Shown piece by piece: positions 12,527-63,024 of a stretch of 64,000 nt of DNA. The position numbers and the translations under genes are program-made. The notes under the pieces are model-generated. The model made no database searches, was not told the origin of the DNA, and saw only the letters and a list, made by a program, of their open reading frames with translations. Source of the DNA: Woeseiaceae bacterium (lineage in GTDB: Bacteria > Pseudomonadota > Gammaproteobacteria > Steroidobacterales > Woeseiaceae); NCBI GenBank assembly GCA_028279985.1, contig JANQMR010000018.1:186001-250000 (forward strand). Reading direction: 5' to 3'. Position 1 is the first letter of the stretch; each line of letters begins with the position of its first letter.

Positions 12527-12556
12527 CCTTCGGCTTCTGACCCTTCAGCTTCTGAC
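12527..12556. repeat. 15-bp tandem repeat covering the DUF2065 stop
   Basis: 12542-12556 contains the last codons and TGA of the DUF2065 gene. 12527-12541 repeats the same 15 bp immediately downstream with one mismatch that converts the stop (TGA) to CGA. Confidence 0.85.
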
Positions 12557-12736
12557 GAGAAACAACAGAAAAAGCCCGATGATCATCACCACGAGCCCAA
12601 CCGTGCGTAGCTGATTGTCACTCAGCCGCGCGACCTGCGCCACCATCTGACGGTAACGGCCGGGCCCTACGAACGGCACCATGCCCTCGATGACCAGCAC
12701 GAGCGCGAGCGCGGTCAGGATTTCCGTCCAGGGCAC
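12545..12736 (-). CDS. DUF2065 small inner-membrane protein
   Basis: 63 residues, essentially two transmembrane helices joined by a loop (RQMVAQVARLSDNQLRTVG). This is the layout of the DUF2065 family regularly encoded next to hflC and purA in Gammaproteobacteria. Function is not established; position suggests a link with the HflKC membrane complex. It lies 27 bp after hflC in the same direction. Its final codons and stop are repeated once in tandem downstream. Confidence 0.85.
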   Translation of the reverse strand: MPWTEILTALALVLVIEGMVPFVGPGRYRQMVAQVARLSDNQLRTVGLVVMIIGLFLLFLVRS

Positions 12737-12763
12737 TCGGGCCTACCAAGCCGCCTGACGCCG

Positions 12764-13636
12764 CTACGGGGTGCCGTCCGACTGATTCAGATAGCGGAAA
12801 AATTCGTTACTCGGGTCGAGCACCAGCAGGTCGCCGGAATTACCCATCGATTGTTTGTACGCATTGATGCTGCGATAGAACGCATAGAACTCGGGGTCCC
12901 GGTTATACGCTTCCGCGTAAATCTCGGCTGCCCTCGCGTCCCCCTCGCCGCGCAACTTTTCCGAATCGCGGCGCGCGTCGGCGAGGATGACCGTGCGCTC
13001 ACGATCCGCCTCCGCCTCGATCCTGTCGGCATCCGCCCTGCCTTCGGCGCGAAGCTCGGTGGCCACACGCTGGCGTTCGGCCGACATCTGCGCGTAAACG
13101 GCCTGCCTCACGTCCTCCATCAATTCGACCTGCTTGACCCGGAAATCGACCAGTTCGACGCCGAGATCCTCGGCAGTGCCGGCAGCGTTGACCAGCATGT
13201 CGCGCATCAAATCGACGCGCTCTACCGAGATCGCCTCGGCAACCGTTCGCTTGCCGAACTCGGTCACGACCGCGTTCTTGATGATCTCCGAAAGACGCCC
13301 GTCGGCAAGCTGCAGGCTGCCGCCGGTAGACGTATAGAACTTCACCGGTTCGACGATGCGCCACTTGACGAAAAAGTCGACCTGCAGCGCCTTTTTCTCG
13401 GCCGTGAAGACCCGCTCCGGGCGATCCTGGATGGTCAGGATGCGCCGCGGGAACTTGTGCACGTTCTGCACAAAGGGAATTTTCCAGTGCAGGCCCGGGT
13501 CGTACTCGGACTGGACGACCTGGCCGAGCTGCAGTTTGATCGCACGCTCGCGCTCGTTGACGGTGAATACCGACAGGCTCAACAGCAAAGCTCCGATGCC
13601 GAGTACCACCAGTATGCGAAACACACCGTTGCTCAT
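12764..13636 (-). CDS. hflC: HflC, prohibitin-like regulator of FtsH
   Basis: Subunit of the HflKC membrane complex that surrounds and modulates the FtsH protease. The 290 residues have a single N-terminal helix (FRILVVLGIGALLLSLSVFTV) and then an SPFH/band-7 domain (ERERAIKLQLGQV, PGLHWKIPFVQNVH, FVKWRIVEPVKFY). A coiled-coil stretch rich in Ala, Glu and Arg and the HflC tail YNRDPEFYAFYRSINAY follow. The bulk faces the periplasm in the known family. Its start overlaps the hflK stop by 4 nt. Confidence 0.96.
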   Translation of the reverse strand: MSNGVFRILVVLGIGALLLSLSVFTVNERERAIKLQLGQVVQSEYDPGLHWKIPFVQNVHKFPRRILTIQDRPERVFTAEKKALQVDFFVKWRIVEPVKFYTSTGGSLQLADGRLSEIIKNAVVTEFGKRTVAEAISVERVDLMRDMLVNAAGTAEDLGVELVDFRVKQVELMEDVRQAVYAQMSAERQRVATELRAEGRADADRIEAEADRERTVILADARRDSEKLRGEGDARAAEIYAEAYNRDPEFYAFYRSINAYKQSMGNSGDLLVLDPSNEFFRYLNQSDGTP

Positions 13637-14757
13637 TGCCGTACCCTCCGCTCGCGTGAAGTATCGTCACCGCGTCTTGCCTCGGCAGTGGACGTGGGTG
13701 TCTCGGCCGGGTAAGCGGTCTGACCGGTTTGCTCGCCGGCCCGGCGCATGGCCCCTTCGATCAGCCTGTCGACTGGTAGATAGAGAAGATTGCCGCTCTG
13801 GTCGGAGTCTAGGATGACTTTGTTGGATCGCGCGTAAATGTCTTCGATGGCCTCGATGTAGAGCCGGTCGCGCGTAACGCGCGGCGCGCGCTGGTATTCG
13901 GCCAGAAGCGCCACGAACCGCGCCGCCTCACCTTCGGCATCGCGGATCACCCTGTCCTGATAGGCACGCGCGTCCTCGAGAATACGTGCCGCGGCGCCGC
14001 GCGCTCTCGGGATGATGTCGTTGGCGTAACGCTCGGCCTCGAGACGGATGCGATCGCTGTCGTTGGCTGCTCTCTGGGTATCGTTGACGGCCTCCTGCAC
14101 GGCCTGCGGATAATCGAGGTTGATGATCGATACCGATGTCACCACGATACCGGCCTGATACTGGTCCAGGGTCGATTGCAGCGTCTGCATGGTACGCTGG
14201 GCGATCTGGTCGCGCTCGCCGGTAACCAGCGACTCGAGCGTCGAGGTGCCGACGACTTCGCGCAGGGCGCTTTCGGTGACATCCTGCACCGTCGCATCCG
14301 GATCGACGACTTCGAAGCTGTAGGCCACCGGATCCGAACGCCGGTACTGCACGACCATCTGTATGAACACGTATTGCTGGTCGGCCGTCAGGATCTCGGT
14401 GCGAAACGGAAAATTCTGTACCGCGTTGGCGTTGACTACGTCCACGCGCTCGACCGGATACGGGATGCGCCAGTGCAGTCCCGGCAAGGCCGTCTTGGTG
14501 TAGGCGCCGAAACGCTGCACGACGCCGCGCTCGGCCTCGTCGATACGATAAAAGCCGGTGAAGCCCCACGCGACCAGCAGCAGCACGATCAAGAGATAAA
14601 CGCCGCCCGCGCCGCCACCCGGCCGTCCACCGCCGCCGCGGCTGAACAAGCCGCCGAGGCGACGCTGCCAGTGCTGCACGATCTTGTCCAGATCGTTGGG
14701 CTCACCGCCCTCCCGCTTCCAGGGGTCCTTGCCGTTTCCAGATTCGTTCCAGGCCAT
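13633..14757 (-). CDS. hflK: HflK, prohibitin-like regulator of FtsH
   Basis: Partner of HflC in the FtsH-modulating complex. The 374 residues begin MAWNESGNGKDPWK, followed by a Gly-rich stretch and one transmembrane helix (YLLIVLLLVAWGFTGFY). The band-7 domain carries ERGVVQRFGAY, PGLHWRIPYPVERV and VVQYRRSDPVAYSFEV, and a long helical segment follows with ARGAAARILEDARAYQDRVI. Length is a little under the E. coli protein. hflX lies 15 bp upstream and hflC overlaps downstream, so the three are one operon with hfq. Confidence 0.96.
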   Translation of the reverse strand: MAWNESGNGKDPWKREGGEPNDLDKIVQHWQRRLGGLFSRGGGGRPGGGAGGVYLLIVLLLVAWGFTGFYRIDEAERGVVQRFGAYTKTALPGLHWRIPYPVERVDVVNANAVQNFPFRTEILTADQQYVFIQMVVQYRRSDPVAYSFEVVDPDATVQDVTESALREVVGTSTLESLVTGERDQIAQRTMQTLQSTLDQYQAGIVVTSVSIINLDYPQAVQEAVNDTQRAANDSDRIRLEAERYANDIIPRARGAAARILEDARAYQDRVIRDAEGEAARFVALLAEYQRAPRVTRDRLYIEAIEDIYARSNKVILDSDQSGNLLYLPVDRLIEGAMRRAGEQTGQTAYPAETPTSTAEARRGDDTSRERRVRQ

Positions 14758-14771
14758 GGTCTCAATACAGA

Positions 14772-16091
14772 TCAGTTCAAAGTCCCGACCGCAGCCTGTT
14801 CCGAGACGGGCAGCGGTTCCAGTGCGTCATCACGCAAGCCTTCGCGCTTGAGGAACCGGCGAAGGTCGCGCTCGGCCATATTCAGTTCCAGTATCCAGCC
14901 GCCGTCATCCGAGCCGGACTCCCTGATGACCGCGCCGAGTTCGAAAAGTTTTGCCCTTTGCCGGCCCTGCGCGGGCCCGAGATGAATCAAACCGTGTAGC
15001 GTCGCCTTACGAAGCCGTTCGCCGACCGCTTTAAGCAACGAGGGCAAACCCTCGCCGGTCGCCGCGGAAAGCCAGACGGCGCGATGCTCCGCCTGACGGG
15101 TACCGGTCGCTTTCGGCTTTCGATCCAGCTTGTCGAGCTTATTGTACACGCGAATCTGCGGAATGCGGTCGGCTTCGAGCTGCTTTAGGACCGCGTTGAC
15201 CTGGCGAACGCGCTGCCATCGATCGGCGTCGCTGGCATCGATCACGTGCAAAATCAGGTCGGCCTCGCGGGCCTCCTGCAAGGTCGAGCGAAACGCCGCC
15301 ACGAGCTCGTGCGGCAGGTCCCGGACGAATCCCACCGTATCGGCGAGCACGGCCGCCCTGCCGCCCGGCAACTCCAGGCGCCGGACGGTCGGGTCCAGGG
15401 TCGCAAAAAGCTGGTCCTCGACATACACGCCGGCATCGGTCAGGGCATTGAACAAGGTCGATTTGCCGGCATTGGTATAACCGACCAGCGCAACGGTCGG
15501 AATCTCCGCGCGCACCCGATTGCGCCGGTTCATCGTTCGCCGTGAATCCACCTGGTCGAGCCGGTCCCGGAGCTGCCGGATACGCCGACCCAACAGGCGC
15601 CGGTCGGTCTCGAGCTGCGTTTCACCGGGACCGCGCAAGCCGATGCCGCCTTTTTGCCGCTCGAGGTGAGTCCATCCCCGCACCAGCCGGGTAGACAAAT
15701 GTCTGAGCTGCGCCAGTTCGACCTGCAGTTTACCCTCGAAGCTACGCGCCCGCTGCGCGAAGATATCCAGTATCAGGCCGGCGCGGTCGACGACGCGGCA
15801 TTTGAGCGCCCGTTCGAGATTCCGCTCCTGACTCGGCGACAGCGGCGTCGAGGAAATCACCAGCTCCGCCTGGTGGCAGCGTACGCTGTCACCGAGCTCC
15901 TCGAGCTTACCCTTGCCGATGAAGTAGCGCGGCTCCGGCGCCTTTCGACTGCTCACGATCTCGGCGACGATGTCGGCGCCCGCGGAACGCGCCAGCTCGG
16001 CGAACTCGCCGCGCTCGGATTGCTCGGGTGCGCCGTCGGGACTTGCGTGGACGAGTATTGCACGCTCGCCGCTTTGCGGCCGCTCAAACAA
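14772..16091 (-). CDS. hflX: GTPase HflX
   Basis: Ribosome-associated GTPase; in E. coli it splits or rescues stalled 70S ribosomes, notably under heat stress. The 439 residues contain the N-terminal HflX domain (AGADIVAEIV, PRYFIGKGKLEELG), a helical linker with GPGETQLETDRR, and the G domain: G1 GYTNAGKST, G3 DTVGFVRDLP, G4 NKLDK. It sits directly downstream of hfq on the same strand, as in most Gammaproteobacteria. The hfq-hflX gap is taken up by a short tandem repeat. Confidence 0.95.
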   Translation of the reverse strand: MFERPQSGERAILVHASPDGAPEQSERGEFAELARSAGADIVAEIVSSRKAPEPRYFIGKGKLEELGDSVRCHQAELVISSTPLSPSQERNLERALKCRVVDRAGLILDIFAQRARSFEGKLQVELAQLRHLSTRLVRGWTHLERQKGGIGLRGPGETQLETDRRLLGRRIRQLRDRLDQVDSRRTMNRRNRVRAEIPTVALVGYTNAGKSTLFNALTDAGVYVEDQLFATLDPTVRRLELPGGRAAVLADTVGFVRDLPHELVAAFRSTLQEAREADLILHVIDASDADRWQRVRQVNAVLKQLEADRIPQIRVYNKLDKLDRKPKATGTRQAEHRAVWLSAATGEGLPSLLKAVGERLRKATLHGLIHLGPAQGRQRAKLFELGAVIRESGSDDGGWILELNMAERDLRRFLKREGLRDDALEPLPVSEQAAVGTLN

Positions 16092-16105
16092 ACGCGGCTC
16101 TCCTC

Positions 16106-16154
16106 GACGAGATAGGGGACGAGTTGAGGAACGAGGTCAGGAAACGAGACCTAA
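16106..16154. repeat. Four-copy ~12-bp tandem repeat at the hfq 3' end
   Basis: Units at 16106-16117, 16118-16129, 16130-16141 and 16142-16154 share the pattern CGAG-NNN-AGG (plus strand). The last unit contains the hfq stop codon (CTA on the plus strand). The same CGAG...AGG pattern recurs in the 14-bp repeat at 43914-43997. Confidence 0.75.
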
Positions 16155-16396
16155 CCGTCGCTGTCTCCCGAGTCGTCGGGTAGCGGCAGGCGTACGTTAC
16201 GCGCCGGAACCACGGTGGAAATCGCATGCTTGTAGACCATCTGGTTGACGCTGTTCTTGAGCAGCACGACAAACTGGTCGAACGAGTCGACCTGGCCTTG
16301 CAGTTTGATGCCGTTGACGAGGTAAATTGAGACAGGGACTTTTTCCTTTCTGAGAATGTTCAAAAACGGATCTTGCAACGTTTGCCCTTTTGCCAT
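16151..16396 (-). CDS. hfq: RNA chaperone Hfq
   Basis: Hexameric Sm-like protein that pairs small RNAs with mRNAs and also affects poly(A)-dependent decay. The 81 residues comprise Sm1 ([39 protein letters not shown]) and Sm2 ([13 protein letters not shown]) with the proximal-site YKHA. A short acidic tail (PDDSGDSDG) ends the protein. The ATG at 16396 is chosen for the family start MAKGQTLQ and the strong AAGGAGA 8-9 nt upstream; a longer frame adds 13 unsupported residues. miaA precedes it and hflX follows. Confidence 0.98.
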
Positions 16397-16491
16397 CGTT
16401 TGGGTCTCCTTATTCTGATTCTTTGAACATCGCATTCCGGTGGCGCCGGTTGCCCATATGCGAAGTTCAGCCTAAGCGTTCAAAAAGTTTA

Positions 16492-17487: not shown

Positions 17488-17495
17488 TGCGGGGT

Positions 17496-20744: not shown

Positions 20745-20782
20745 TGGCTTCGAATACTGACGAACTGGAATTATGTCGGATC

Positions 20783-21363: not shown

Positions 21364-21427
21364 CGATTAACCATTACCTATTGACCGTTGCCTATTCAAC
21401 ATTGCCGACTGACTATTGCCGATTGAC
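21358..21427. repeat. 14-bp tandem repeat between nnr and tsaE (about 5 copies)
   Basis: Units at 21414-21427, 21400-21413, 21386-21399, 21372-21385 and a degenerate one at 21358-21371 follow the plus-strand pattern YATTGCCNATTGAC. The first unit is coding sequence of nnr, the nnr stop lies at 21413-21415, and the last unit reaches the tsaE start codon. Confidence 0.9.
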
Positions 21428-39700: not shown

Positions 39701-39878
39701 TCGCGCGAGGGCCGAGGCCGGGATTTGCACGGTATTCTGAGCACTGCATCACAATACCGGCCGCAGGCGGTGCATTTGCCGCGGCAATTCGCGACGATGG
39801 CGGAAGGCGATTCGTCGCGAGTGAGGTCGCAGGCGAGACGGCGGGTGAGGCCGCATGTGAGATAGGATTCGCCAATAC

Positions 39879-39906
39879 ACGATCCACGATCCACGATCCA
39901 CGATCC
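39879..39906. repeat. Four 7-bp tandem repeats upstream of the MoxR gene
   Basis: ACGATCC occurs four times head to tail at 39879-39906, ending 11 bp before the ATG at 39918. The stretch before it (39824-39865) also holds two loose copies of GTGAGGYCGCA. The rest of the 217-bp valS-moxR gap shows no gene. Confidence 0.9.
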
Positions 39907-39917: not shown

Positions 39918-40883
39918 ATGCAAGGCCGGAGCACGCTCGAAACCCTGCCGGCAGGCAAAGACGCCGGACGCGCGGCACTGGACCATGCGCGTGCGGCGCT
40001 CGGCCGCATCATTCTCGACAAGGACCGCCAGATCTCGCTGGCCCTGGCCTGCCTGCTCGCGCGAGGCCACCTGCTGATCGAGGACTTGCCCGGTCTCGGC
40101 AAGACCATGCTGGCACAGGCGCTGGCGCGCGTATTGGGCTTGAGCTTCAGCCGCATTCAATTCACGAGCGATCTGCTGCCCGCGGACATCGTCGGCGTTT
40201 CGACGTTTCGCAGGGCCACGGGCGAGTTCGAGTTTCAACCCGGGCCGGTGTTCGCGCAACTGGTGCTGGCCGACGAGGTCAACCGCGCGACGCCTAAGGC
40301 GCAAAGCGCCCTACTCGAGGCCATGGAGGAGCAGCAGGTTTCGGTGGACGGCAACACACGCGGTCTCCCGAAACCGTTTTTCGTCGTCGCAACACAGAAT
40401 CCGGCGGACCAGATCGGCACGTTTCCGCTGCCCGAGTCACAGCTCGACCGCTTCCTGATGCGGCTGACGATGGGCTACCCGAACGAACACAACGAGCGCG
40501 AGCTGATCACCGGCCAGGACAGGCGTGCGATGCTCGCCGGCCTCGAACCCTCCGCTACGGCCGACGCCCTGGTTGCACTGCAGGCGGCGGCCGCGACGGT
40601 ACACATGAGTGACCCGCTCGTAGACTACATACAGGCGCTGGTGCGCCAGACCCGCGAATCTCCGAACATCGATATCGGTCTGTCCCCGCGCGGCGCGCAG
40701 GCCCTGGCGGCAGCCGCGCGCGCCCACGCCTACGTCGAAAGACACCCGGGCGTGTATCCCGACGACGTGCAGGCCGTGTTCACCGCCGTTGCCGGACACC
40801 GTCTCAAGGCGGCCGGCAACACCAGCCACCGGGATGCCGCCGAGCTCTGCCAGCATGTCCTCGATTCGGTGGACATTCCCTAG
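39918..40883 (+). CDS. MoxR-family AAA+ ATPase
   Basis: Chaperone-like AAA+ ATPase. The 321 residues show Walker A IEDLPGLGKTMLAQALA, the FTSDLLPADIVG motif, QPGPVFAQLVLADEVNRATP (Walker B), ATQNPADQIGTFPLPESQLD (sensor 1 region) and the lid with GLSPRGAQALAAAARA. In this class the gene is followed by DUF58 and transglutaminase genes; the trio is linked to maturation of cell-surface or metal-dependent proteins, but the client here is unknown. Its final codons and stop are repeated in tandem downstream. Confidence 0.93.
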   Translation: MQGRSTLETLPAGKDAGRAALDHARAALGRIILDKDRQISLALACLLARGHLLIEDLPGLGKTMLAQALARVLGLSFSRIQFTSDLLPADIVGVSTFRRATGEFEFQPGPVFAQLVLADEVNRATPKAQSALLEAMEEQQVSVDGNTRGLPKPFFVVATQNPADQIGTFPLPESQLDRFLMRLTMGYPNEHNERELITGQDRRAMLAGLEPSATADALVALQAAAATVHMSDPLVDYIQALVRQTRESPNIDIGLSPRGAQALAAAARAHAYVERHPGVYPDDVQAVFTAVAGHRLKAAGNTSHRDAAELCQHVLDSVDIP

Positions 40884-40907
40884 CGTTTTGTTCCCCAGCG
40901 TTTTGCA
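40878..40907. repeat. 15-bp tandem repeat covering the MoxR-gene stop
   Basis: 40878-40892 (containing the TAG at 40881-40883) and 40893-40907 match at 12 of 15 positions, sharing AGCGTTTTG. The second copy carries CAG in place of the stop and leads directly into the start region of the DUF58 gene. Confidence 0.75.
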
Positions 40908-40911
40908 GAGG

Positions 40912-41919
40912 GTGGTGTTGCCGAGCTTGCTCGTCCCGGCAAACACGGCCTTGAAACAGCGCGTCCGGCGCTGGGCACGCAAACGGCAGGGTATCGATCC
41001 GCATTCGATCCGCCTGCGCCCGGGCCGTGTGTACATACTGCCCACCGGCGTCGGTATCGTTTTCGCGATCATGGTGTTTGCGATGCTGCTCGGCTCGATG
41101 AACTACAACAACAATCTCTCCTTCCTGCTGTCGTTCCTCCTCGGCGGACTGGGTTTCGCCTCGATGCACGCCTGCCAGCGCAATCTGGTCGGCCTCGAAA
41201 TCGGTTTCGCGGGAACCGATCCGGTGTTCGCCGGCCAGGCCGCGCAGTTCCGGGTCGCGGTGACCAACCCGTCCAGGAACCGACGCTGCCGGATTCGCCT
41301 TTTCACCGACGAGGCCGAGAGCCGGATACACGATCTCGATCCCGGCGAAAGCCGGGTATTCGTGCTGCCGGTCGCTACCGAAAGACGCGGAACCGTCGAG
41401 CTCGAGCGCTTCGGCATCCGGAGCCTGTTTCCCTTCGAGCTGTTTCGCTCCTGGTCGTGGCTGCACATGGACATTCATGGCCTGGTCTACCCGCGGCCGG
41501 CCGACCAGGCACCGCAGCCGCCGGCGACCAGAACGTCGCTCGGCCACCGGCAGCACGACGCGCGCGGCGAAGAGGACTTCGCCGGTCTGCGCAAGTTCGC
41601 AAGCGGCGACTCGCCGAGAAACGTTGCCTGGAAAGCGTACGCGCGCAGCGGTCAACTGCTCTCGAAGCGTTTTGCCGGCGCCGACACCAGCAGCCAGTGG
41701 TTTGATTTCGACACCGTGCCCGCCGGCGATCTCGAGGATCGCCTGTCGGTATTGACGCGGTGGATCGTCGATGCCGATCGCACGCGCGCCGACTACGGTC
41801 TGAGATTGCCGGGGCGCGAATTTCCGCCCGGGCACGGCGAATCGCACCGCGGCCGGTGCCTCGAGGCCCTGGCATTGTTCGACCCCGCTTCGTCCGGTGG
41901 ACGAGAAGCGCATGGCTAA
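40912..41919 (+). CDS. DUF58 domain protein
   Basis: About 335 residues. After a basic N-terminus (ALKQRVRRWARKRQGID) come two transmembrane helices (GIVFAIMVFAMLLG and NNNLSFLLSFLLGGLGF), a beta-rich domain, and the DUF58 core: DFAGLRKFASGDSPRNVAWK followed by ARSGQLLSKRF. DUF58 proteins accompany MoxR ATPases; the core is von Willebrand A-like and the role is not settled. The start is uncertain among GTG 40912, GTG 40915 and TTG 40918; AGAGG at 40907-40911 favours the last by spacing. The 3' end overlaps the next gene. Confidence 0.85.
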   Translation: MVLPSLLVPANTALKQRVRRWARKRQGIDPHSIRLRPGRVYILPTGVGIVFAIMVFAMLLGSMNYNNNLSFLLSFLLGGLGFASMHACQRNLVGLEIGFAGTDPVFAGQAAQFRVAVTNPSRNRRCRIRLFTDEAESRIHDLDPGESRVFVLPVATERRGTVELERFGIRSLFPFELFRSWSWLHMDIHGLVYPRPADQAPQPPATRTSLGHRQHDARGEEDFAGLRKFASGDSPRNVAWKAYARSGQLLSKRFAGADTSSQWFDFDTVPAGDLEDRLSVLTRWIVDADRTRADYGLRLPGREFPPGHGESHRGRCLEALALFDPASSGGREAHG

Positions 41920-43921
41920 GCCGCGGGGCACGGATGGCTCGCTGATCGACAGCCTGCCGTGGACCTTGACCGCAATCGGTTTTGCCCTGTCGGCTCACTT
42001 GCCCTATCTGCCGGTCTGGATCACCGCTGCGTTTTTGGCCTGCGCCGGATGGCGGATCGTCATCGAGCGGCGACGGGCCGCGGTGCCATCGGTATGGGTG
42101 CGGGCAGCGCTGGCGCTGATCTGCTTTCTCGGCGTGCTCGCCACCTACGATACGATCAGCGGCGTCGGTCCGGGCTCCGCGTTACTCGCGATCATGGCGG
42201 CGCTCAAGCTGCTTGAAACCCGTCAGCGGCGCGACCAGTTCGTCCTGCTGTTCATTGCGCTGTTCCTGGTCATGGCAGCGCTGCTTCGCGAACAGTATTT
42301 GTGGTCCTTACCGTATCTTCTGGTCGCCGTGCTGCTGGTCATGACGGCATGGATACGCATGTCGGCCGAGCGCGCCGAACCCCTGGGTCGAAGTCTGGCG
42401 ACGGGCGGGCGCATGCTGGCTTACGCGCTGCCGCTGGCGGTCGCGATGTGGATCTTTTTCCCGCGTATCTCGTCACCGTTCTGGTCGGTGCCGATCGACA
42501 CGAGCTCGGCGGTCACCGGGCTCAGCGATCGGATGAGTCCGGGCGACATCAGTTCCTTGTCGCAATCGGACGCGCTGGCCTTTCGTGTGAAGTTTGACGG
42601 CGAGGCACCGCCGCCGCCGGAACGTTACTGGCGCGGCCTGGTGCTCCACGACTTCAACGGTCGAACCTGGGCCGGCGGCGGGCCGATCGGCAACCGGCCG
42701 GCCACCGAGCAAATCGAATTCGAAGGCGATCCGGTGCGCTACCGCATTACCCTTGAGCCGACCAATCAGCAATGGGTGTTTGCTCTGGAGTTGCCGTTCG
42801 AATGGACGCTGCCGCGGACCCGGATGGGTTTTCGCCAGCAGCTCTACAACATCTATCCGATCGATCAGCGAATCGCCTACGAGGTGCTGTCGTACCCGGC
42901 GTACCGCAACCAAGCTTCCGTCGACGTGCGATCCAGGGCCTGGTACACCGATTTGCCGGGCCGCACCAATCCGCTTACGCGAGCGCTGGCAAGCGAGATG
43001 AGGGCACGGGCCGGTAGCGATCAGGACTTCATTCGGGACGTCCTCGCCCGTTTCAACCGGGAAGACTACTACTACACGCTACGACCGCCGGCGCTCGGCA
43101 ACAACCCCGTGGACCGGTTCCTGTTCGATACCCGGCGGGGCTTTTGCGAGCACTACGCATCGGCTTTCGCCGTCATGATGCGTGCCGCCGGTATTCCGGC
43201 GCGTATCGTGCTGGGTTATCAGGGCGGCGAGTTCAATCCGTTGAGCGGCCAGTACGTGATCCGCCAGTCCGACGCCCATGCCTGGACCGAGGTATGGCTC
43301 GAGGGCCAGGGCTGGCACCGTGTGGATCCGACGGCCGCGGTGGCGCCCGAGCGTGTCGAGCTGGGTATCGCCGGCGCCATAGTCGATGGCGTCGGCGCCG
43401 CCTGGGGCCTGTCGGCGCCGTCGCAAGTGCTGCATCGCCTGGTACTCGGTTGGGACGCCCTGAACGCCCGCTGGAACGAATGGGTACTGGGTTACGGCGC
43501 CGACACGCAAGACACGTTCATGCGCTGGCTCGGGATGGACAACCCCAACTGGCGAAACCTGTTTTTGACCATGTTGGCAATCGTGTTCGGACTGGTAATC
43601 TTGATCGGCGCAGCCCTGACATTCCGGTTGCGGCCGCCCGACAAGGACCGCGCCGCGGTCTTGTACCGGCGCTTCGTCAGGAAAACCGGATTGACGCCCG
43701 CCACCGGCGAAACGCCGAATGCGTTCGCCGTGCGCGTAAGCGCGGCATACGACCGCGCCGAGAAGCCGGTGCGCGCGCTTACGAACGCCTACCTCGACAC
43801 GCGTTACGGTCCGCCCGACCGCTCGGCATTGAAACGACTCGAAACCGCGCTGGCGGAGATTCCCCGGTTTGCCCCGCTCAGGGCTAGGGAGCTTCTGCAC
43901 AAATCTGGCGAGGCTCCCTAG
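41912..43921 (+). CDS. DUF3488/transglutaminase-like membrane protein (TgpA type)
   Basis: About 669 residues. Five or six N-terminal helices are followed by a periplasmic transglutaminase core with Cys in DTRRGFCEHYASAFAVMMRA, His in SDAHAWTEVWLEG and Asp in WHRVDPTAAVAPER, giving a complete Cys-His-Asp triad. One more helix (FLTMLAIVFGLVILIGAALTF) and a cytoplasmic DUF4129-like tail end the protein. The Pseudomonas aeruginosa relative TgpA is essential, with uncertain chemistry. ATG 41912 overlaps the DUF58 stop; GTG 41897 is an alternative. Its stop lies in the first unit of a 14-bp repeat. Confidence 0.9.
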   Translation: MAKPRGTDGSLIDSLPWTLTAIGFALSAHLPYLPVWITAAFLACAGWRIVIERRRAAVPSVWVRAALALICFLGVLATYDTISGVGPGSALLAIMAALKLLETRQRRDQFVLLFIALFLVMAALLREQYLWSLPYLLVAVLLVMTAWIRMSAERAEPLGRSLATGGRMLAYALPLAVAMWIFFPRISSPFWSVPIDTSSAVTGLSDRMSPGDISSLSQSDALAFRVKFDGEAPPPPERYWRGLVLHDFNGRTWAGGGPIGNRPATEQIEFEGDPVRYRITLEPTNQQWVFALELPFEWTLPRTRMGFRQQLYNIYPIDQRIAYEVLSYPAYRNQASVDVRSRAWYTDLPGRTNPLTRALASEMRARAGSDQDFIRDVLARFNREDYYYTLRPPALGNNPVDRFLFDTRRGFCEHYASAFAVMMRAAGIPARIVLGYQGGEFNPLSGQYVIRQSDAHAWTEVWLEGQGWHRVDPTAAVAPERVELGIAGAIVDGVGAAWGLSAPSQVLHRLVLGWDALNARWNEWVLGYGADTQDTFMRWLGMDNPNWRNLFLTMLAIVFGLVILIGAALTFRLRPPDKDRAAVLYRRFVRKTGLTPATGETPNAFAVRVSAAYDRAEKPVRALTNAYLDTRYGPPDRSALKRLETALAEIPRFAPLRARELLHKSGEAP

Positions 43922-43997
43922 TTCTCGCCCCCTAATTCTCGTTCCCTAATTCTCGTTCCTTAGGTCTCGTTCCCTAGGTCTCGTTCCCTAGGTCTCG
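43914..43997. repeat. Six 14-bp tandem repeats containing both convergent stop codons
   Basis: Six contiguous 14-bp units (43914-43927 through 43984-43997) have the consensus TTCCCTAGGTCTCG. The last two are identical. The transglutaminase stop (43919-43921) lies in unit 1, and the MFS gene stop, on the other strand (43988-43990), in unit 6. Confidence 0.95.
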
Positions 43998-45259: not shown

Positions 45260-45353
45260 CGGTTGCTCGAGCCGGTCGCTGCGGTGTCGTCGATATCGAC
45301 GATATCGGCGGTCATCGCGACGCTAGGGAACCTTTGCATCAGTCCGGCGAGGC

Positions 45354-45385
45354 TCCCCGTGCTCACACGTTCTAGTGCTCACGTG
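45354..45385. repeat. 16-bp imperfect tandem repeat covering the prfC stop
   Basis: 45370-45385 holds the last codons and stop of prfC (stop at 45372-45374); 45354-45369 repeats it with 11 of 16 positions matching (shared core GTGCTCAC on the plus strand). Weak on its own. Confidence 0.5.
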
Positions 45386-46952: not shown

Positions 46953-47120
46953 TATTGTGACGAGGATTTCGGGCTGTCCGGTTGCCGGAGGTTTCGGACA
47001 GCCGCAGAGCGCGCGCAGTTTAGCCGCATCGACGCGTTTTGTCTCGCACGCCGCGGAGGCGTCCCAGGGAGTATCTGAAGGGAATCTCTGCAGGGACCAT
47101 GCGCATAGCGTTAACAGGCC

Positions 47121-50923: not shown

Positions 50924-51514
50924 ATGACCCGTTCCTGCCGCTCCGCTCGAACACGCTGCCACGGCCTTCTCGCCGGCATGCTCGCGCTGCTGGCGGCAAC
51001 GGGTTTCGCCGAAACGAGACCCGACCCGGAATTGCGTGAGCTGTTGCGGGCCGCGGCCAGCGAAGCCGACAGCTTTCCGGACCGCTTCGACGCGCAGGTC
51101 TGGCTGACCGACATGTCGAGACGCCTGGAGCGACAGGTCCGCGATCCCGAGGAACGGATATACATCCTGACCCGCGTGCACTACGAAGCCAACCGGGTCG
51201 GACTCCCGCCGGAATTGATCCTCGCGGTCATCGAAGTCGAAAGCAACTTCGACCGTTACGCCATCTCGGTGGCGGGTGCGCTCGGCCTGATGCAGGTCAT
51301 GCCGTTCTGGCTGGAGGAGATCGGGCGGCCGGGAGACAACCTCTTGCACATCGACACCAACCTGCGCTACGGCTCCACGATCCTCAAGTACTACTACGAC
51401 AAGGAAAACGGGGACCTGAGGCGTGCGCTGGGACGTTACAACGGCAGCCTGGGCAAGCGTAAGTATCCCAATAAAGTCATCGATAAACTTTCAAGGAAAT
51501 GGTTCCAGGCTTGA
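50924..51514 (+). CDS. Lytic transglycosylase (SLT domain)
   Basis: Secreted murein lytic enzyme. The 196 residues have a signal peptide ending near TGFAETR and an SLT domain with the catalytic Glu in ILAVIEVESNFDRYA, the GALGLMQVMPFW motif and GSTILKYYYDKENGDLRRAL, then ALGRYNGSLGKRKY. It lies 26 bp after proS. The final codons and stop are part of a 40-bp sequence that is repeated exactly 15 bp downstream. Confidence 0.9.
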   Translation: MTRSCRSARTRCHGLLAGMLALLAATGFAETRPDPELRELLRAAASEADSFPDRFDAQVWLTDMSRRLERQVRDPEERIYILTRVHYEANRVGLPPELILAVIEVESNFDRYAISVAGALGLMQVMPFWLEEIGRPGDNLLHIDTNLRYGSTILKYYYDKENGDLRRALGRYNGSLGKRKYPNKVIDKLSRKWFQA

Positions 51515-51570
51515 TGCCATCTTCCGGTGAGTCATCGATAAACTTTCAAGGAAATGGTTCCAGGCTTGAT
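51476..51570. repeat. Exact 40-bp direct repeat at the lytic transglycosylase 3' end
   Basis: 51476-51515 (last 12 codons, stop and one base) recurs without mismatch at 51531-51570, separated by 15 bp, so the duplicated unit is 55 bp. The second copy is outside the gene. Confidence 0.97.
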
Positions 51571-55420: not shown

Positions 55421-55425
55421 GCCGG

Positions 55426-56576: not shown

Positions 56577-57602
56577 ATGGCCAACAACGATCTGACCTAC
56601 AAAGATGCCGGTGTCGACATCGACGCCGGAAACGATCTCGTCGAGCGCATCAAACCGCTGGTCGCCGCCACCCGCCGGCCGGAGGTCATCGCGGGTCTCG
56701 GCGGATTCGGCGGCCTGTTTGCGCTGCCGCCCGACAAATACCGGGAACCGGTGCTGGTGTCGGGCACCGACGGCGTGGGCACCAAACTCAAGCTCGCGCA
56801 ACAGCTCGGGCGCCACGATACGATCGGTATCGACCTCGTCGCAATGTGCGCCAACGACGTGCTCGTGCAGGGCGCGGAACCGCTCTTTTTCCTGGACTAT
56901 TTCGCCTGCGGCAAACTCGATGTCGACGTGGCGACCGAAGTCGTCCGGGGCATCGTGGCCGGCTGCAAACAGGCTGGCATGGCCCTGATCGGCGGCGAAA
57001 CCGCCGAGATGCCGGACATGTATGCCGGCGGGGATTACGATCTCGCGGGTTTTTGCGTGGGCGCCGTGGAGCGCTCGGCGCTGATCGACGGCAGCGCCAT
57101 ACGCGCCGGCGATGCGCTGATCGCGATGGCCTCCAGCGGGCCGCACTCCAACGGTTACTCGCTGATCCGGCGAGTGCTGGCGCTGAGCGGCGACCATCGG
57201 CATCGGATCGACGGCCGCGACGCCGCCGAAACCTTGCTGGCGCCGACCCGAATCTATGTACGACCGGTACTCGAACTGATGCAGGCGGTAAGCATCAAGG
57301 GCCTCGTACACATCACCGGCGGCGGAATGACGGACAACCTGCCGCGGGTGCTGCCGCCGCAATTACACGCCGAGATCGACACCGCGAGCTGGCGGCCGGC
57401 TGCGGTATTCGACTGGCTCGCCGAGACGGGCGGCATCGGCGTGGATGAAATGCGCCGAACCTTCAATTGCGGCGTCGGCATGATCGTGGCCATTGATCCG
57501 GGAGAGGCGCAGACGGCCATCGATCGGCTTACCGCATCCGGCGAGACGGCGTGGCAAATCGGCAGGATTGCCGAAGGCGGCGGCGAGGTCGCCTATCGTT
57601 GA
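56577..57602 (+). CDS. purM: Phosphoribosylformylglycinamidine cyclo-ligase
   Basis: AIR synthetase, the fifth step of purine synthesis. The 341 residues show [91 protein letters not shown], and [19 protein letters not shown]. The ATG at 56577 begins [10 protein letters not shown]; upstream open sequence is antisense to DUF2066. It is followed by purN with a 4-nt overlap. The last four bases before the stop and the stop itself are repeated in a 12-bp tandem. Confidence 0.97.
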
Positions 57603-57620
57603 GCGGCACGTTGAGCGACA
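57597..57620. repeat. 12-bp tandem repeat at the purM stop / purN start
   Basis: 57597-57608 and 57609-57620 match at 11 of 12 positions (CGTTGAGCGRCA). The first holds the purM TGA; both contain a TTG in the purN frame (57599 and 57611), so the duplication has doubled the possible purN start. Confidence 0.8.
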
Positions 57621-58264
57621 CGAGACCGCGTATCGCAATCCTGATCTCGGGTTCGGGCACCAATCTGCAGGCTTTCATCGACCGGGCAGGAAGCGGCGAG
57701 CTCGCAGCCGACATCGGGATCGTGTTCTCCAACCGTCCGGACGCCTACGGCCTGAAACGCGCGACCCGGGCGGGCATCCCGGTTTCCTGCCTGGAACACG
57801 GCCATTACGCCGATCGTGAGCACTTCGACCGCGCCGTCGCCGAGCGTCTCGACGCCGGCCGGCCCGACCTGATCGTCCTCGCCGGCTTCATGCGAATCCT
57901 GAGCCCCTGGTTCGTCCATCGCTACGAAGGCCGGATCCTGAACATCCACCCCGCGCTGCTACCGCTGTATCCGGGGCTCGATACCCATCAGCGGGTACTC
58001 GACGCGGGCGACAGCCGGCACGGCAGCACCGTGCATTTCGTGACCGAGGAACTCGACGGCGGCCCGCGCGTGCTTGCGGGGCGCATCCGCGTCATGCCGC
58101 ACGAGACGGCTGCCGAACTCATGCAAAGGGTGCAGGCCGTCGAGCACCGGATCTACCCGGAGGCTGCGCGGTGGTTCGTCGAGGGGCGCCTGCAATTCAG
58201 GGACGGCAGCGCCTGGCTGGACGGTGAGAAGCTCGACGAACCGATCGTGCGGGATTTCGACTGA
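57599..58264 (+). CDS. purN: Phosphoribosylglycinamide formyltransferase (TTG start)
   Basis: Transfers the formyl group from 10-formyl-THF to GAR, the third purine step. The 221 residues show [50 protein letters not shown], the catalytic [20 protein letters not shown] and [19 protein letters not shown] (Asn, His and Asp of the active site). No ATG or GTG lies near the conserved start, so TTG 57599 (TTGA overlap with purM) or TTG 57611 must serve. It converges on dcd. Confidence 0.95.
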
Positions 58265-58301
58265 AGCCCGATCCTGCCAGTAACGACGCTCGAACGACCA
58301 T

Positions 58302-58417
58302 GGTGGCCGGGGCAAGCACCATCCTCAATGCGAGAGGGGCGGGTGTGGGGGATGTTTCACCGAGCGAGTTTTCCTGTTTGAGCGAATGAAACATCCCCCG
58401 CGCCCGCCCCGGCCACC
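58302..58417. terminator. Long imperfect hairpin between convergent purN and dcd
   Basis: GGGGCGGGTGTGGGGGATGT.. at 58336-58359 pairs with 58387-58410 over 24 bp with two G-T pairs, around a 27-nt loop. An outer arm (58302-58313) can compete for the same 3' strand (58406-58417). There is no T run. Position and strength suggest a bidirectional stop or an RNA-stabilising structure. Confidence 0.6.
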
Positions 58418-58440
58418 GAGTAACAATCGAACCAGCGACG

Positions 58441-59007
58441 CTACGCCTTAGGCAGCGTCACTCCGGTCTGGCCCTGGTACTTACCGCCGCGATCCTTGTA
58501 CGAGGTCTCACACTCCTCGTCGGATTCGAGAAACAGCATCTGCGCCACACCCTCGTTGGCGTAAATCTTGGCGGGAAGGGGCGTCGTATTGGAAAACTCC
58601 AGGGTCACATGCCCTTCCCACTCGGGTTCCAGCGGAGTGACGTTGACGATGATGCCGCAACGCGCATACGTGGACTTGCCGAGGCAGATGGTCAGGACAT
58701 TGCGCGGAATCCGGAAAAACTCGACGGTCCGGGCCAGCGCGAAAGAGTTGGGCGGGATGACGCAAACGTCGCTTTGTACGTCCACGAAACTGGTTTCGAC
58801 AAAAGCCTTCGGGTCCACGACCGCGGAGTTGATATTGGTGAAGATCTTGAACTCGTCCGAACAGCGTACGTCGTAACCGTAACTCGAGGTGCCGTAGGAC
58901 ACGATTTTCTGATCGCCGTTCTTCCTGACCTGCCCGGGTTCGAAGGGCTCGATCATGCCGTGTGTGACGGCCATGTTTCGGATCCAGCGATCCGACTTGA
59001 TGCTCAT
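58441..59007 (-). CDS. dcd: dCTP deaminase
   Basis: Deaminates dCTP to dUTP for thymidylate synthesis. The 188 residues show [39 protein letters not shown] with the catalytic Glu, [20 protein letters not shown] and [20 protein letters not shown]. Length is normal. It is directly downstream of apbC (start and stop adjacent), a frequent gammaproteobacterial neighbour. Confidence 0.97.
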
Positions 59008-60102
59008 TCAGCTCTTCTCCACGACGATGTTGGGGAACGCGCTGCTGTAGTCCCTGCCCCGCGCGGCGAGCGCGGCAGCCATCCGCCGGGCCGCCAGCCG
59101 GTAGGCCGTTGCGGCCGGTGAATCCGGTTCCGAGGCGACGGTCGGTCTGCCGGCGTCGGTCTGCTCGCGGATGCGGGCGTCCAGCGGCAAGCGCCCGAGC
59201 AGTTCGACGCCGAAATCCTCGGCCATGCGTTCCGCGCCCCCGGAACCGAAGATCGATTCTTCGTGGCCGCAGTTCGAACAGACGTGCACGCTCATGTTCT
59301 CGATCACGCCCAGCACCGGAATCGACACCTTGCGGAACATCTCTAGCCCCTTGCGCGCGTCAATGGCGGCAATGTCCTGGGGCGTCGTCACGATCACGGC
59401 GCCCGACACCGGTACCTGCTGCGAGAGCGTGAGCTGGATATCGCCCGTTCCCGGGGGCATGTCGACGATCAGATAATCGAGATCCCGCCACCGAGTCTGG
59501 TTCAGAAGCTGGTTGAGCGCCGAGGTGACCATCGGACCGCGCCACACCATCGGCTGGTCCGGATCGATCAGGAAACCGATGGAGATGGCCTGCAAACCGT
59601 GGGCCGTGAGCGGCAACATCGTTTTTCCGTCCTCGCTGACCGGCTGTTCGCCGACCAGGCCCAACATGTGCGGCTGACTCGGCCCGTAGATGTCGGCGTC
59701 GAGCAGGCCCACGTTCGCGCCGTCCGCCGCCAGTGCCAGGGCCAGGTTGACCGCAACCGTGGACTTGCCGACGCCGCCCTTGCCCGAGGCGACGGCGATC
59801 ACGTTACGGACCTCCGCAAGGGGCTTGAGATTCCGCTGAACGCCGTGCGCGACGACTTTGGTCGTGAACAGGAGTTCGGCGTCTTCGACGCCGTCCCGGC
59901 CGACGAGACCGGCCCGGATGTGGTTTGCCCAGGCTTCCTGCGCGCCGGAGGCCGGAAAGCCGAGTTCGATCCGGGCTTGGACCCGGCCGGCATCGATCGA
60001 TACGCCGGACACGCGGCCGACCTCCCCCAGCCTGCGGCCCAAATCCGGCAGCTCCACGGAATCGAGGAATTCCCTCAGGTCTGAATCTGTTGACGGCGTC
60101 AC
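59008..60102 (-). CDS. apbC: Iron-sulfur cluster carrier protein ApbC/Mrp
   Basis: P-loop ATPase that carries and delivers Fe-S clusters. The 364 residues have an N-terminal MIP18-like domain (about 1-85) and a deviant Walker A IAVASGKGGVGKSTVAVNLA, DADIYGPSQPHMLG, DYLIVDMPPGTGDIQLTLSQ and the cluster-binding VCSNCGHEE. The GTG at 60102 is chosen as the first start that yields the family N-terminus. An open frame extends over 120 codons further upstream without family features. dcd follows immediately. Confidence 0.92.
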   Translation of the reverse strand: MTPSTDSDLREFLDSVELPDLGRRLGEVGRVSGVSIDAGRVQARIELGFPASGAQEAWANHIRAGLVGRDGVEDAELLFTTKVVAHGVQRNLKPLAEVRNVIAVASGKGGVGKSTVAVNLALALAADGANVGLLDADIYGPSQPHMLGLVGEQPVSEDGKTMLPLTAHGLQAISIGFLIDPDQPMVWRGPMVTSALNQLLNQTRWRDLDYLIVDMPPGTGDIQLTLSQQVPVSGAVIVTTPQDIAAIDARKGLEMFRKVSIPVLGVIENMSVHVCSNCGHEESIFGSGGAERMAEDFGVELLGRLPLDARIREQTDAGRPTVASEPDSPAATAYRLAARRMAAALAARGRDYSSAFPNIVVEKS

Positions 60103-60497
60103 ACTAATAGGACTCTCATTAGGTAAAATCGAATGTCGCTTTCCCCGGCGGGGCGGCGCCTGGGCGCACATTGTATCCGACGCGGAGCGCGGACCAAGAC
60201 CGCGCGGGCTTACTCGGCGATATCGCCGGAAGCCACGAATGGCAAAGCCTCTGCCGGGAAGGACGGAAAAACGATGTGGCATAATGCCGCATCCGAAGAT
60301 GGCGAGCGAGCGCCGCGAGACCGATGGCCGGTCCTGCGGTCGGGCTCGCTGCTGGCTTGGGCCGGACAATTGACCAACATTTCGAGCAAGTGGACGAGGA
60401 GAGGACCGGTCGTGGCGTATGCGATACGACGCCGGCGTAATGCGTTGCTCATGCCGTCTCCCTGCACGCTGGCCCTGATCGCCGGGATCCATCCCCT
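60103..60497. other. 395-bp intergenic region between apbC and the HEAT-kinase
   Basis: The two flanking genes diverge, so promoters for both should lie here. A possible -10 toward the kinase is GGCATAAT (about 60278-60285), without a clear -35. Open frames on both strands are short extensions or shadows with no recognised product. metG, often divergent from apbC in related genomes, is absent. Confidence 0.3.
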
Positions 60498-62948
60498 ATG
60501 AGTTTTTTTGGCGCATTCAGAGCCGACCAACTGATACAGGATCTCGCTTCCCAACCCGACCCGTCGTCGGCCAGCGCGCAGAAGCTCGTCCAGAAAATCA
60601 AACGTTCCGGTCCCAAGGTCATACCCAAAGTCATCGATGCGCTGGCGATGTCCGACAAGTCGCATACGATGGTATTCGTGGACATACTCTCGAGTTTTGT
60701 CTGCGACAAAACGCTCAAGCACTATCAGGAAGGCTTAGCCGACGGCAACGAGCGCGTGGTCAAGGGCACCGCCTGGGCCCTGTCGAGTTCCACCGACTAC
60801 AACGCCAACGCGCTGCTCGCGTTCTTCGACGACGAGGAAGTCTCGAAGCCCGCCCTCATTGAAATCCTGCAAGTACACAAAGACGACATGTCGGTGCACG
60901 AGCTGCTGCAGCGCGCCTACGAGCTCGACATCAAGGAAAAGGCGGCGCTGTTCAAGATCATCGAATCGATGGTCAAACCGGAGATGGTACCGGACCTGGT
61001 CGCCCGCATGGGCGGCAAGGATCCGGTCATGAAAGTGCACCTGATCAACCTGCTCGGCAAGTTCGACCGCCCGGAGGTCAACCAGGCCCTGGAGGTCCAG
61101 CTCAGGGACCCGAACAAGATGGTGCGCAGCGCGGCGCTGGGCACGCTTGCGAAACGCGGCACCGCCGTCAACCTCGCAGCCGTGGCGAAGTTGCTGCAAG
61201 ACCCGGATCTGGATGTGCAGAACAAGGCCGTGGACATGCTGGTGCAGATGAACCACCCGGATACCGTCCGGCACCTGACGGGTGCGCTCAAGGACGAATC
61301 CGAGTACTCGCGGCGCGCGGCCGTCGAAGTATTGAACGAAATCGGCACCGTGGACTCGGTCAAGGACCTCCTCGGCGTGCTCAAGGACGACGACTGGTGG
61401 GTTCGCTCCCGCGCCGGCGATGCGCTGGCGGAGATCGGCGGTCCCAAGGTGGTCGATTCCGTGGTCGCCTTGATCGGCGACGAGGACGAGGAAATCCGCC
61501 GGTCTGCCATCGAGATCCTGAACGCAACCAAGGACGAGCGTGCCGTCGATCACTTGATCAAGGCCACCGACGACGCCGACTGGTGGGTGCGCGAGCGTGC
61601 CGTCGACGCCCTGTGCAAGATCGGCAGCCCCAAGGCCCTGTCGAAATTCGAGTCGATGCTCGGCAAGGATCCGAAGACCGACACGGTCGTCATCCGCGGC
61701 CTGGCGCAGCTCGGCAACAACGCGCATATCGCCAAAATCGTGCCGATGCTCAAGCGTCCCGAGCGGGAGATCCAGATCGAGGCCGTCAAGGCGCTGTCGC
61801 AACTCGCCGACGAGTCTCACGCGGAGACCGTTCGCGGCGTGCTGACCAAGATCAAACAGTCGGACGAGCCGACGATCATCAACGTGGCCGACAAGGCGCT
61901 CAAGGACCTGGACGCACGTTTCTCGGCGTCGGTTCTGGAAGAGAATGCACGGGCGAAAAAAATCGGCGAACACACGAAGACCCTGCTGCTGGACGACAGC
62001 GATCTCGAGCAGCTACTCCACGCGCAAGCCGCCGCCGAACAGGCTCAGGCGGAACCGAGCGAGGACGTGGGCGAGGCGCCGCTTCCAGAGCCCCCGCCGA
62101 AACTCGACATCGCGACGCTCGAGCCGGGTGACGTCATCGACGCGCGATACAAGTTCATCGAGAAAATCGGCAAGGGCGCTTTCGGCACCGTGCTATTGAT
62201 GCAGGACGAGGTCGTCGACGAACGCCTGATCCTGAAGTTCCTGAATCCGAACGTTTCTTCCGACGAGGAGATGATGAAGCGTTTCGTGCACGAGCTCAGG
62301 TATTCGAGAAAGATCACGCATAAAAACGTCATTCGAATCTACGACTTCCTGAACCTGCAGGGCGCCTACGCGATCTCGATGGAGTACTTCCCGTCGCATA
62401 CCTTGTCCGGCGAGATCCCCGACAGCAAACCGATGGACGTCAAAAAGGCGCTGCGCTTTTCGCGGGATATAGCGACCGGCATGACGGTCGCACATCAGGC
62501 GGGCGTCATTCACCGCGACCTCAAGCCGGCGAACATCCTGGTCAACGACGACGGCTTGCTCAAGATCGTGGACTTCGGCGTCGCTGCGGCTGCGTCCAGC
62601 GGCGACACCCAGCTCACCAAGACCGGCTACGTCATCGGTTCACCGAAATACATGGCGCCCGAACAGATCCTGGGCAAGAAGGTCGACGAAACCGCCGACG
62701 TCTACTCGGTCGGCGTGATCATGTACGAGATGACGACCGGCGTGCCGCCTTACAGCCGCGGCGACCACATGTCGGTGATGTACCAGCACGTGCAGGGCAA
62801 AGCCAAGGCCTGCCAGGAGATAAATCCGACGATCCCCGACGAGTTTGCCACCATCATCGGCAAGGCGATGTCGGTAGACAAGAGCAAACGTTATCAGTCG
62901 ATGATCGAATTGACGGACGCGCTCGATGAAGTTCGCCTCAATGCCTGA
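60498..62948 (+). CDS. HEAT-repeat / Ser-Thr protein kinase fusion
   Basis: 816 residues. About 30-490 form tandem HEAT/PBS-lyase-type repeats (for example DDDWWVRSRAGDALAEIGGP and DDADWWVRERAVDALCKIGS). A helical, then Pro/Glu-rich linker leads to a Hanks-type kinase domain from about 545. Its motifs are complete: IGKGAFGTV loop, Lys in LILKFLN, HRDLKPANIL (about 671), VDFGVAA, YMAPEQI and ADVYSVGVIMYEM. No transmembrane segment is seen. A PilT-family gene lies 250 bp downstream, so a role in surface motility control is possible but inferred. The 3' end is duplicated in tandem. Confidence 0.88.
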   Translation: MSFFGAFRADQLIQDLASQPDPSSASAQKLVQKIKRSGPKVIPKVIDALAMSDKSHTMVFVDILSSFVCDKTLKHYQEGLADGNERVVKGTAWALSSSTDYNANALLAFFDDEEVSKPALIEILQVHKDDMSVHELLQRAYELDIKEKAALFKIIESMVKPEMVPDLVARMGGKDPVMKVHLINLLGKFDRPEVNQALEVQLRDPNKMVRSAALGTLAKRGTAVNLAAVAKLLQDPDLDVQNKAVDMLVQMNHPDTVRHLTGALKDESEYSRRAAVEVLNEIGTVDSVKDLLGVLKDDDWWVRSRAGDALAEIGGPKVVDSVVALIGDEDEEIRRSAIEILNATKDERAVDHLIKATDDADWWVRERAVDALCKIGSPKALSKFESMLGKDPKTDTVVIRGLAQLGNNAHIAKIVPMLKRPEREIQIEAVKALSQLADESHAETVRGVLTKIKQSDEPTIINVADKALKDLDARFSASVLEENARAKKIGEHTKTLLLDDSDLEQLLHAQAAAEQAQAEPSEDVGEAPLPEPPPKLDIATLEPGDVIDARYKFIEKIGKGAFGTVLLMQDEVVDERLILKFLNPNVSSDEEMMKRFVHELRYSRKITHKNVIRIYDFLNLQGAYAISMEYFPSHTLSGEIPDSKPMDVKKALRFSRDIATGMTVAHQAGVIHRDLKPANILVNDDGLLKIVDFGVAAAASSGDTQLTKTGYVIGSPKYMAPEQILGKKVDETADVYSVGVIMYEMTTGVPPYSRGDHMSVMYQHVQGKAKACQEINPTIPDEFATIIGKAMSVDKSKRYQSMIELTDALDEVRLNA

Positions 62949-63024
62949 GGCAATCTTAGGACTAGTGGATCCGCTCGATGAAGTTCGCTTCAACGCCTGA
63001 GGCGATCTGAGGATTATTGGAGCC
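62921..63024. repeat. 52-bp tandem duplication of the HEAT-kinase 3' end
   Basis: 62921-62972 (last codons, stop and 24 bp beyond) is followed directly by 62973-63024, which matches at about 45 of 52 positions. The second copy keeps the TGA. Confidence 0.95.

Follow-up and report, generated by a model that had tools for sequence, protein, structure and literature searches.

The window analysed here is a 64,000-nucleotide stretch of the genome of a Woeseiaceae bacterium (contig positions 186001-250000; the genome comprises 4.10 Mb in 40 contigs). In this paper we describe short tandem repeats found at the 3' ends of nine of its genes and the genome-wide bloom of intergenic tandem arrays to which they belong. 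Pfam matches in the window identify Hfq, TsaE, a MoxR-type AAA protein, a TgpA transglutaminase, an MFS/ATG22 transporter, release factor 3 (prfC), an SLT transglycosylase, an AIR-synthase family protein (purM) and a HEAT-repeat kinase. The names DUF2065 and NNR (496 aa) are labels of a first-pass annotation, the Pfam check having covered the other genes. That annotation had proposed that the last coding bases and the stop codon are repeated head to tail just downstream of nine genes, and a direct repeat together with a gene end is indeed present in all nine intervals. Arrays were called with Tandem Repeats Finder (TRF), in the window at a score of at least 30. The nine repeats are the following.

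12527-12556, minus strand, DUF2065: 15-bp unit in two copies over the stop codon of the gene at 12545-12736; 14/15 bases match at lag 15, TRF 93%
16106-16154, minus strand, hfq: degenerate array with a period of 12-14 bp just beyond the stop codon, in the hfq-hflX gap; 23/37 match at lag 12, TRF array at 16119-16148
21364-21427, minus strand, NNR: 14-bp unit in 4.6 copies, beginning within the last NNR codons and extending up to the start codon of tsaE; 39/56 match at lag 14, called by TRF
40876-40905, plus strand, MoxR: 15-bp unit in two copies over the stop codon; TRF 93%, with 12/15 matches if placed as in the first-pass annotation
43915-43997, plus strand, TgpA/MFS: 14-bp unit in 5.9 copies filling the convergent junction; 62/70 match at lag 14, TRF 88%
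45354-45385, minus strand, prfC: weak 16-bp direct repeat over the stop codon; 11/16 match, without a TRF call
51476-51570, plus strand, SLT transglycosylase: the last 40 bp of the gene, including the stop codon, repeated once; 40/40 match at lag 55
57597-57622, plus strand, purM: 12-bp unit in 2.2 copies, covering the stop codon as well as the start of the following gene; 11/12 match, TRF 92%
62920-63050, plus strand, HEAT-repeat protein kinase: 52-bp unit in 2.1-2.5 copies over the stop codon; 45/52 match at lag 52, TRF 81-87%

TRF calls seven of these loci, leaving prfC and the SLT gene uncalled. The stop codon lies within the repeat at eight loci, as had been described, and at TgpA/MFS the array holds the stop codons of both convergent genes. 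The exception is hfq, where the called array starts 2 bp beyond the stop. Nor is the repetition head to tail everywhere, since the two 40-bp copies at the SLT gene are spaced at 55 bp with a 15-bp spacer between them. Among the cases that had been considered possibly coincidental prfC is indeed weak, whereas MoxR and purM were called by TRF at the values given above.

A genome-wide bloom of short tandem arrays

For a wider view we used two samples of the same genome: the window together with 40 other stretches (766 kb), and 20 further stretches (400 kb), together 1.166 Mb (~1.17 Mb) or about 28% of the genome. Genes were called with a purpose-written script using a trained Markov model, by which stops are exact and starts approximate. 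To be independent of TRF scoring we also counted, for each lag, exact-match runs of at least nine bases in intergenic regions with a 20-bp flank. The first sample contains 10, 35, 18, 39, 18 and 9 such runs at lags 11 to 16 (129 in total), while shuffled sequence gives at most about one run per 100 kb per lag. The second sample replicates this peak (58 runs in 51.7 kb of intergenic DNA), and the combined intergenic count is 188 runs in 143.6 kb. Short periods are scarce, with only 11 runs at lags 2-7. The window itself, with 6 runs in 7.7 kb of intergenic DNA, lies below the genome average.

The arrays called by TRF fit the description of minisatellites, with units of roughly 10-60 bp, in that they have two or more head-to-tail copies of a unit of at least 10 bp. 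There are 230 arrays with a score of at least 50 in 1.17 Mb, and in the list from the first sample their units are mostly at least 10 bp long. Counting only arrays with at least 3.5 copies of such units leaves 41, or 35.2 per Mb, of which 32 lie outside called genes; the same count in relatives gives 2 arrays, or 1.9 per Mb. Altogether 158 arrays in the sampled 1.17 of 4.10 Mb are not wholly inside a gene, and about 23% of the intergenic regions that are 40-1500 bp long contain arrays. Copy numbers reach 8, and many arrays have diverged copies.

The units differ from locus to locus. The longest substrings shared among 143 units are close to those in one shuffled set of units, and the 12-base pattern of the TgpA unit has no exact match beyond its own array. 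A dispersed family of the REP, STRR or TAACTGA type was therefore rejected, as the comparison is near chance. In composition the array units are richer in AT than other intergenic DNA (GC 0.518 vs 0.583 in the first sample), and in the intergenic units of the first sample CCTA/TAGG, CAAT/ATTG and CTAG are overrepresented.

Inside genes the picture is narrower. At lag 12 this genome has 31 coding runs in 650 kb; the relatives have 12 in 915 kb, and other gammaproteobacteria 9 in 647 kb. Coding lags 11, 13, 14 and 16 jointly reach 0.77 per 100 kb, in this genome as in the relatives. The clear survivors inside genes are thus 12-bp duplications, while noncoding DNA keeps all lengths from 11 to 16.

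Comparison with relatives

The relatives comprise 33 genomes of the genus, sampled in part and mostly by one stretch of 4-20 kb each. They hold 11 intergenic runs at lags 11-16 in 113 kb, and the best-sampled ones with any run are G021 (3 in 10.2 kb) and G022 (2 in 14.6 kb). A further 80 hfq loci from other gammaproteobacteria have 5 runs in about 84 kb. The arrays are thus largely missing from the sampled relatives, and the bloom is apparently limited to this species. These relatives are distant, with 58-65% identity between full-length TgpA matches and 81% for the closest prfC DNA; given this distance and the thin sampling, the same bloom could be present in a close sister that escaped our view.

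The genes themselves end at the same codon in relatives at 37/37 loci for MoxR, 60/61 for prfC, 6/6 for the SLT gene and 17/17 for DUF2065, where the loci counted at one junction may include the same genome twice. By eye we saw no gene-end repeat in the relatives' downstream sequence, looking at up to 8 sequences per gene. The relatives' gaps between neighbouring genes are mostly shorter. The DUF2065-purA gap is 71 bp here and 2-36 bp at 17 relative loci, and the prfC-MFS gap is 112 bp compared to -40 to 49 bp at 64 loci. For hfq-hflX we find 59 bp, with a median of 35 bp (range 3-137) at 18 relative loci. NNR and tsaE are separated by 49 bp here and by -4 to +11 bp at six of eight relative loci, overlapping by 4 bases in four relatives; at the other two loci (-115 and -133) the starts are probably misassigned. 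The convergent TgpA-MFS junction measures 66 bp, while the median of 61 relative loci is -11 bp and only 6 are longer. The MoxR-DUF58 gap was left out of the comparison, the starts in relatives (-29 in most) being doubtful. As the relatives have the same gene ends and mostly shorter gaps, the copy within the gene is most simply ancestral, and the downstream copies would have been added.

Two observations concern individual junctions. The C-terminus of TgpA (41897-43921) lies 16-19 residues later than at 37 of 52 relative loci, and this extra stretch enters the array. The sequence at 45323-45359, 3' of prfC, matches C13:149029-149065 and C5:61581-61614 of the same genome at about 90%, and a similar string near 43900 suggests perhaps a small dispersed repeat.

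Arrays at stop codons

We counted an array as stop-spanning when it covers the whole stop codon and reaches at most about one unit into the gene, at any period. With a TRF score of at least 45 there are 37 such arrays at the 882 gene ends of our 1.166-Mb sample. In 27 relatives (1.04 Mb, 838 gene ends) there is one, and Markov shuffles (n=3) contain 0.33 on average. At a score of at least 50 the counts are 30, 0 and 0. These numbers bear out the earlier suggestion of a recurring process rather than chance. The unit length is often not a multiple of three, as had been remarked; periods that are multiples of three occur in 10/29 stop-spanning arrays and 37/90 downstream arrays. Since in-frame periods are not favoured, selection for backup in-frame stops (tandem stop codons) was rejected.

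The question whether stops are preferred was addressed by comparing the arrays with uniform placement that leaves proteins unaltered. We took the 237 arrays with a score of at least 45 and a period of 11-16 or 22-32, excluding 79 inside genes and 8 reaching deep into a gene. The remainder comprises 115 purely intergenic arrays, 22 spanning a stop, 7 spanning a start and 6 spanning both, with 133, 7.9, 8.0 and 1.0 expected. The purely intergenic arrays, which the first-pass annotation did not list, thus outnumber the stop-spanning ones. Start-spanning arrays number 13 with 9.0 expected. Outside the window there are 24 stop-spanning arrays (18 plus 6), compared to 8.6 expected (7.6 plus 1.0), so that the choice of the window is not the cause of the excess; the second sample by itself has 7 where 2.5 are expected. 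Among the strongest arrays (score at least 80) no excess is seen, as 6 overlap stops and 17 of 100 random placements reach that number.

Array coverage is 0.054-0.078 within 80 bp of stops and 0.007-0.021 beyond 100 bp. Arrays are found in 28/117 divergent, 19/80 convergent and 76/334 tandem intergenic regions, with a coverage of 0.034 in divergent and 0.048 in convergent regions. Divergent regions have no 3' end and yet are as likely as convergent ones to contain arrays, and there is the 12-bp excess inside genes too. A class tied to gene ends, as the first-pass annotation had supposed, is therefore not supported.

Duplication endpoints and candidate genes

For an analysis of endpoints we used 59 exact duplications, leaving out those with a recognisable third copy. 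The number of shared flanking bases is 0, 1, 2 and 3 in 25, 12, 6 and 1 cases, and simulated homology-free duplications predict fractions of 0.535, 0.273, 0.112 and 0.043. Hence 44/59 duplications fit the expectation without homology and are in this sense independent of pre-existing repeats. Slippage on short pre-existing repeats would put the mode above zero, and the distribution speaks against it.

Several candidate genes were checked as possible causes. The ARRALDY motif of TopA is intact here and in 7 relatives (the eighth, G055, was left out because of a wrong strand), the C-terminus of our TopA being lost at the contig end. We take the arginine of this motif to be residue 168, and a substitution of Arg168 was rejected as the cause because this arginine is intact. 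An extra type IA topoisomerase was likewise rejected, as there is only one match here, like in most members of the genus. Loss of the 5'-3' exonuclease domain, RecJ or RNase HI was rejected because each is present: the exonuclease domain has two matches, in frames of 914 and 303 aa taken as PolA and Xni, and RNase HI was found in 17 of 24 genomes searched, this one included. Ku (PF02735) was not found in this genome, which led us to reject Ku end joining as the source; one of 73 genus genomes, G046, has a match. No match to ExoI (PF08411) turned up in any of the 73 genus genomes, so that its absence does not discriminate. PolA has 16 residues specific to this genome at conserved columns when compared to the 20 best-scoring relative loci, which are a biased set, and the acidic residues that we take to be catalytic looked present by eye.

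Other features of the window and genome

Two places in the window carry arrays upstream of genes.

39817-39906, no strand assigned, upstream of MoxR: two intergenic arrays (24 bp in 1.9 copies and 7 bp in 4.1 copies), away from any 3' end, called by TRF
47066-47096, no strand assigned, upstream of prfC: intergenic 13-bp unit in 2.4 copies, called by TRF

At 4761-8467 of the window the coding model calls no gene despite long open reading frames, and this might be atypical or acquired DNA. Elsewhere in the genome (L035, 3710-6150) a unit of about 219 bp occurs in 11 copies within coding sequence and encodes a large repeat protein.

Discussion

The period spectrum, the duplication endpoints and the comparison with relatives point to a process that does not depend on homology. 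We consider it probable that the arrays result from a lineage-specific tandem duplication of 11-16 bp, filtered by selection. The mutational process would repeatedly copy 11-16 bp head to tail, without any need for a repeat shared by the sites involved. Two-copy duplications would later be extended to higher copy numbers and diverge, presumably through ordinary slippage of one copy on another. Selection would remove duplications that change a protein, as the pattern inside genes suggests. A duplication containing a stop codon would be silent for the protein, since the first copy terminates translation, and gene 3' ends could therefore keep duplications whatever their unit length. Compact operon junctions might in this way have been pushed apart, in line with the wider gaps. 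As for the source, an enzyme might join single-strand breaks that have a short stagger, a mechanism put forward for type IA topoisomerase or paired-nick mutagenesis, but this possibility is a doubtful one. A broader picture is plausible, though we would not yet favour it: a standing natural mutator making blunt duplications of 11-16 bp, whose size reflects an enzyme stagger slightly over one helical turn, and which preferentially marks gene 3' ends, possibly where breaks form at the end of transcription.

Several of our observations weigh against the preferred reading of a selection-filtered duplication process. Stop-spanning arrays total 28, of which 6 also span a start, with 8.9 expected, an excess of about 3-fold. 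The density is 3.0-3.3 per 1000 end-bp for arrays starting 3-16 bases inside the gene, compared to 1.7-2.7 at offsets from -2 to 32 and less farther out; with more arrays across stops than just downstream, there may be a real preference for gene ends. The composition bias of the units is not predicted by a process without regard to sequence. Periods outside the peak are also raised, as lags 23-60 have 180 runs here and 18 in relatives. In coding DNA lag 15 is barely above relatives (14 vs 13 runs, 2.16 vs 1.42 per 100 kb), while lags 9 and 24 exceed them (2.16 vs 0.87 and 1.54 vs 0.33 per 100 kb). Among the 59 exact duplications 15 share at least 4 flanking bases (12 of them 7-12), giving a mean of 2.6 where 0.9 is expected; we read these cases as partial third copies. 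The Arg168 equivalent of TopA is intact, and none of the candidates checked (TopA, 5'-3' exonuclease, RecJ, RNase HI and Ku) emerges as the causal gene. What we observe is a modest gene-end preference atop a general intergenic bloom, and a candidate cause of this preference is that a duplication containing the stop leaves the protein unaltered.

The excess at stops raises the question whether gene-end copies are kept as a selected feature, with repeated stop codons or a repeated 3'-UTR sequence being of benefit to termination, RNA stability or insulation. The denser coverage near stops and the enrichment of CTAG and CCTA in the units would suit such a role, which we nevertheless regard as unlikely. 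Divergent and convergent regions carry arrays about equally often, stops show no preference for in-frame periods, the units are unrelated across loci, and relatives with the same genes are nearly free of arrays. Neither the termination structure nor the selected 3'-UTR function suggested in the first-pass annotation is required by the data. If a general repair defect had raised the rate of ordinary replication slippage at short repeats already present, copy numbers up to 8 could be explained as later slippage, and the missing ExoI might be taken as the defect. We give this explanation little credence, because in 44/59 exact duplications the microhomology at the flanks is no greater than chance would give, and lags 2-7 are so scarce compared to lags 11-16. 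In addition, all 73 genus genomes lack ExoI, yet the 33 sampled relatives have no comparable bloom.

Target-site duplications of 11-16 bp, left by mobile elements after excision, would be blunt and narrow in size as observed here. Such footprints seem very improbable as the source, since many arrays have 3-8 copies and a length spread of 11-16 bp is broad for one transposase. Finally, all our evidence comes from one draft assembly, so that an artefact of assembly or sequencing has to be considered. We find this hardly credible, because coding sequence shows an excess at lag 12 and none at 13 and 14, and an artefact would be an unlikely source of arrays that respect the reading frame. Moreover, the copies are diverged in many arrays, and the window arrays sit within a 305-kb contig. 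The lineage-specific duplication process filtered by selection thus stays our preferred explanation.

Several known systems resemble parts of this picture. In E. coli the topA R168C allele causes de novo tandem duplications, of 2-19 bp in galK, that are independent of existing repeats (Bachar et al., PMC6954433). These share with our arrays the short head-to-tail form, but they stem from a laboratory allele, while here we see a natural genome with an intact Arg168 equivalent, a narrower range of periods (11-16 bp) and many multi-copy arrays. Prokaryotic satellites with tandem units of 10-200 bp have been described, with many locus-unique arrays in some species (Subirana and Messeguer, PMC6749651), and in both respects they are like ours. 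The highest bacterial density in Table 1 of that study is 23.0 per Mb, for B. pseudomallei chrII and from units of 6-8 nt, and some Methanosarcina reach 89 per Mb (PMC6749651); the 35.2 per Mb found here was obtained with a similar but not identical criterion. We see no sign of an ancestry from shorter units in our genome, where lags 6-8 have 5 runs in the first sample. Beggiatoaceae also are gammaproteobacteria with abundant intergenic direct repeats, of the sequence TAACTGA (PMC4679880), but there one fixed heptamer occurs at many loci, while our units differ from one locus to the next. In a beta-lactamase gene, de novo tandem repeats were found with direct repeats or with same-strand complementary sequences (PMC4169377). 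Some of these short new duplications lack bordering direct repeats, as most of ours do, but they arose under selection in one gene. A literature search, which left subscription journals mostly uncovered, found no published description of such a bloom. Minisatellites and repeat-independent duplications are thus already known, whereas a bloom with narrow periods and locus-unique units that is apparently limited to one species appears to be new.

The formation of tandem repeats de novo from non-repeating sequence has been stated to have an unknown mechanism (Bachar et al., PMC6954433). By extrapolation, natural examples in this genome number several hundred and range from perfect two-copy duplications to decayed multi-copy arrays. 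As the sampled relatives largely lack the arrays, a comparative search for the source gene is possible. Our results also suggest that a neutral process can mimic a regulatory element at the 3' end of genes, because duplications that contain the stop codon are silent for the protein.

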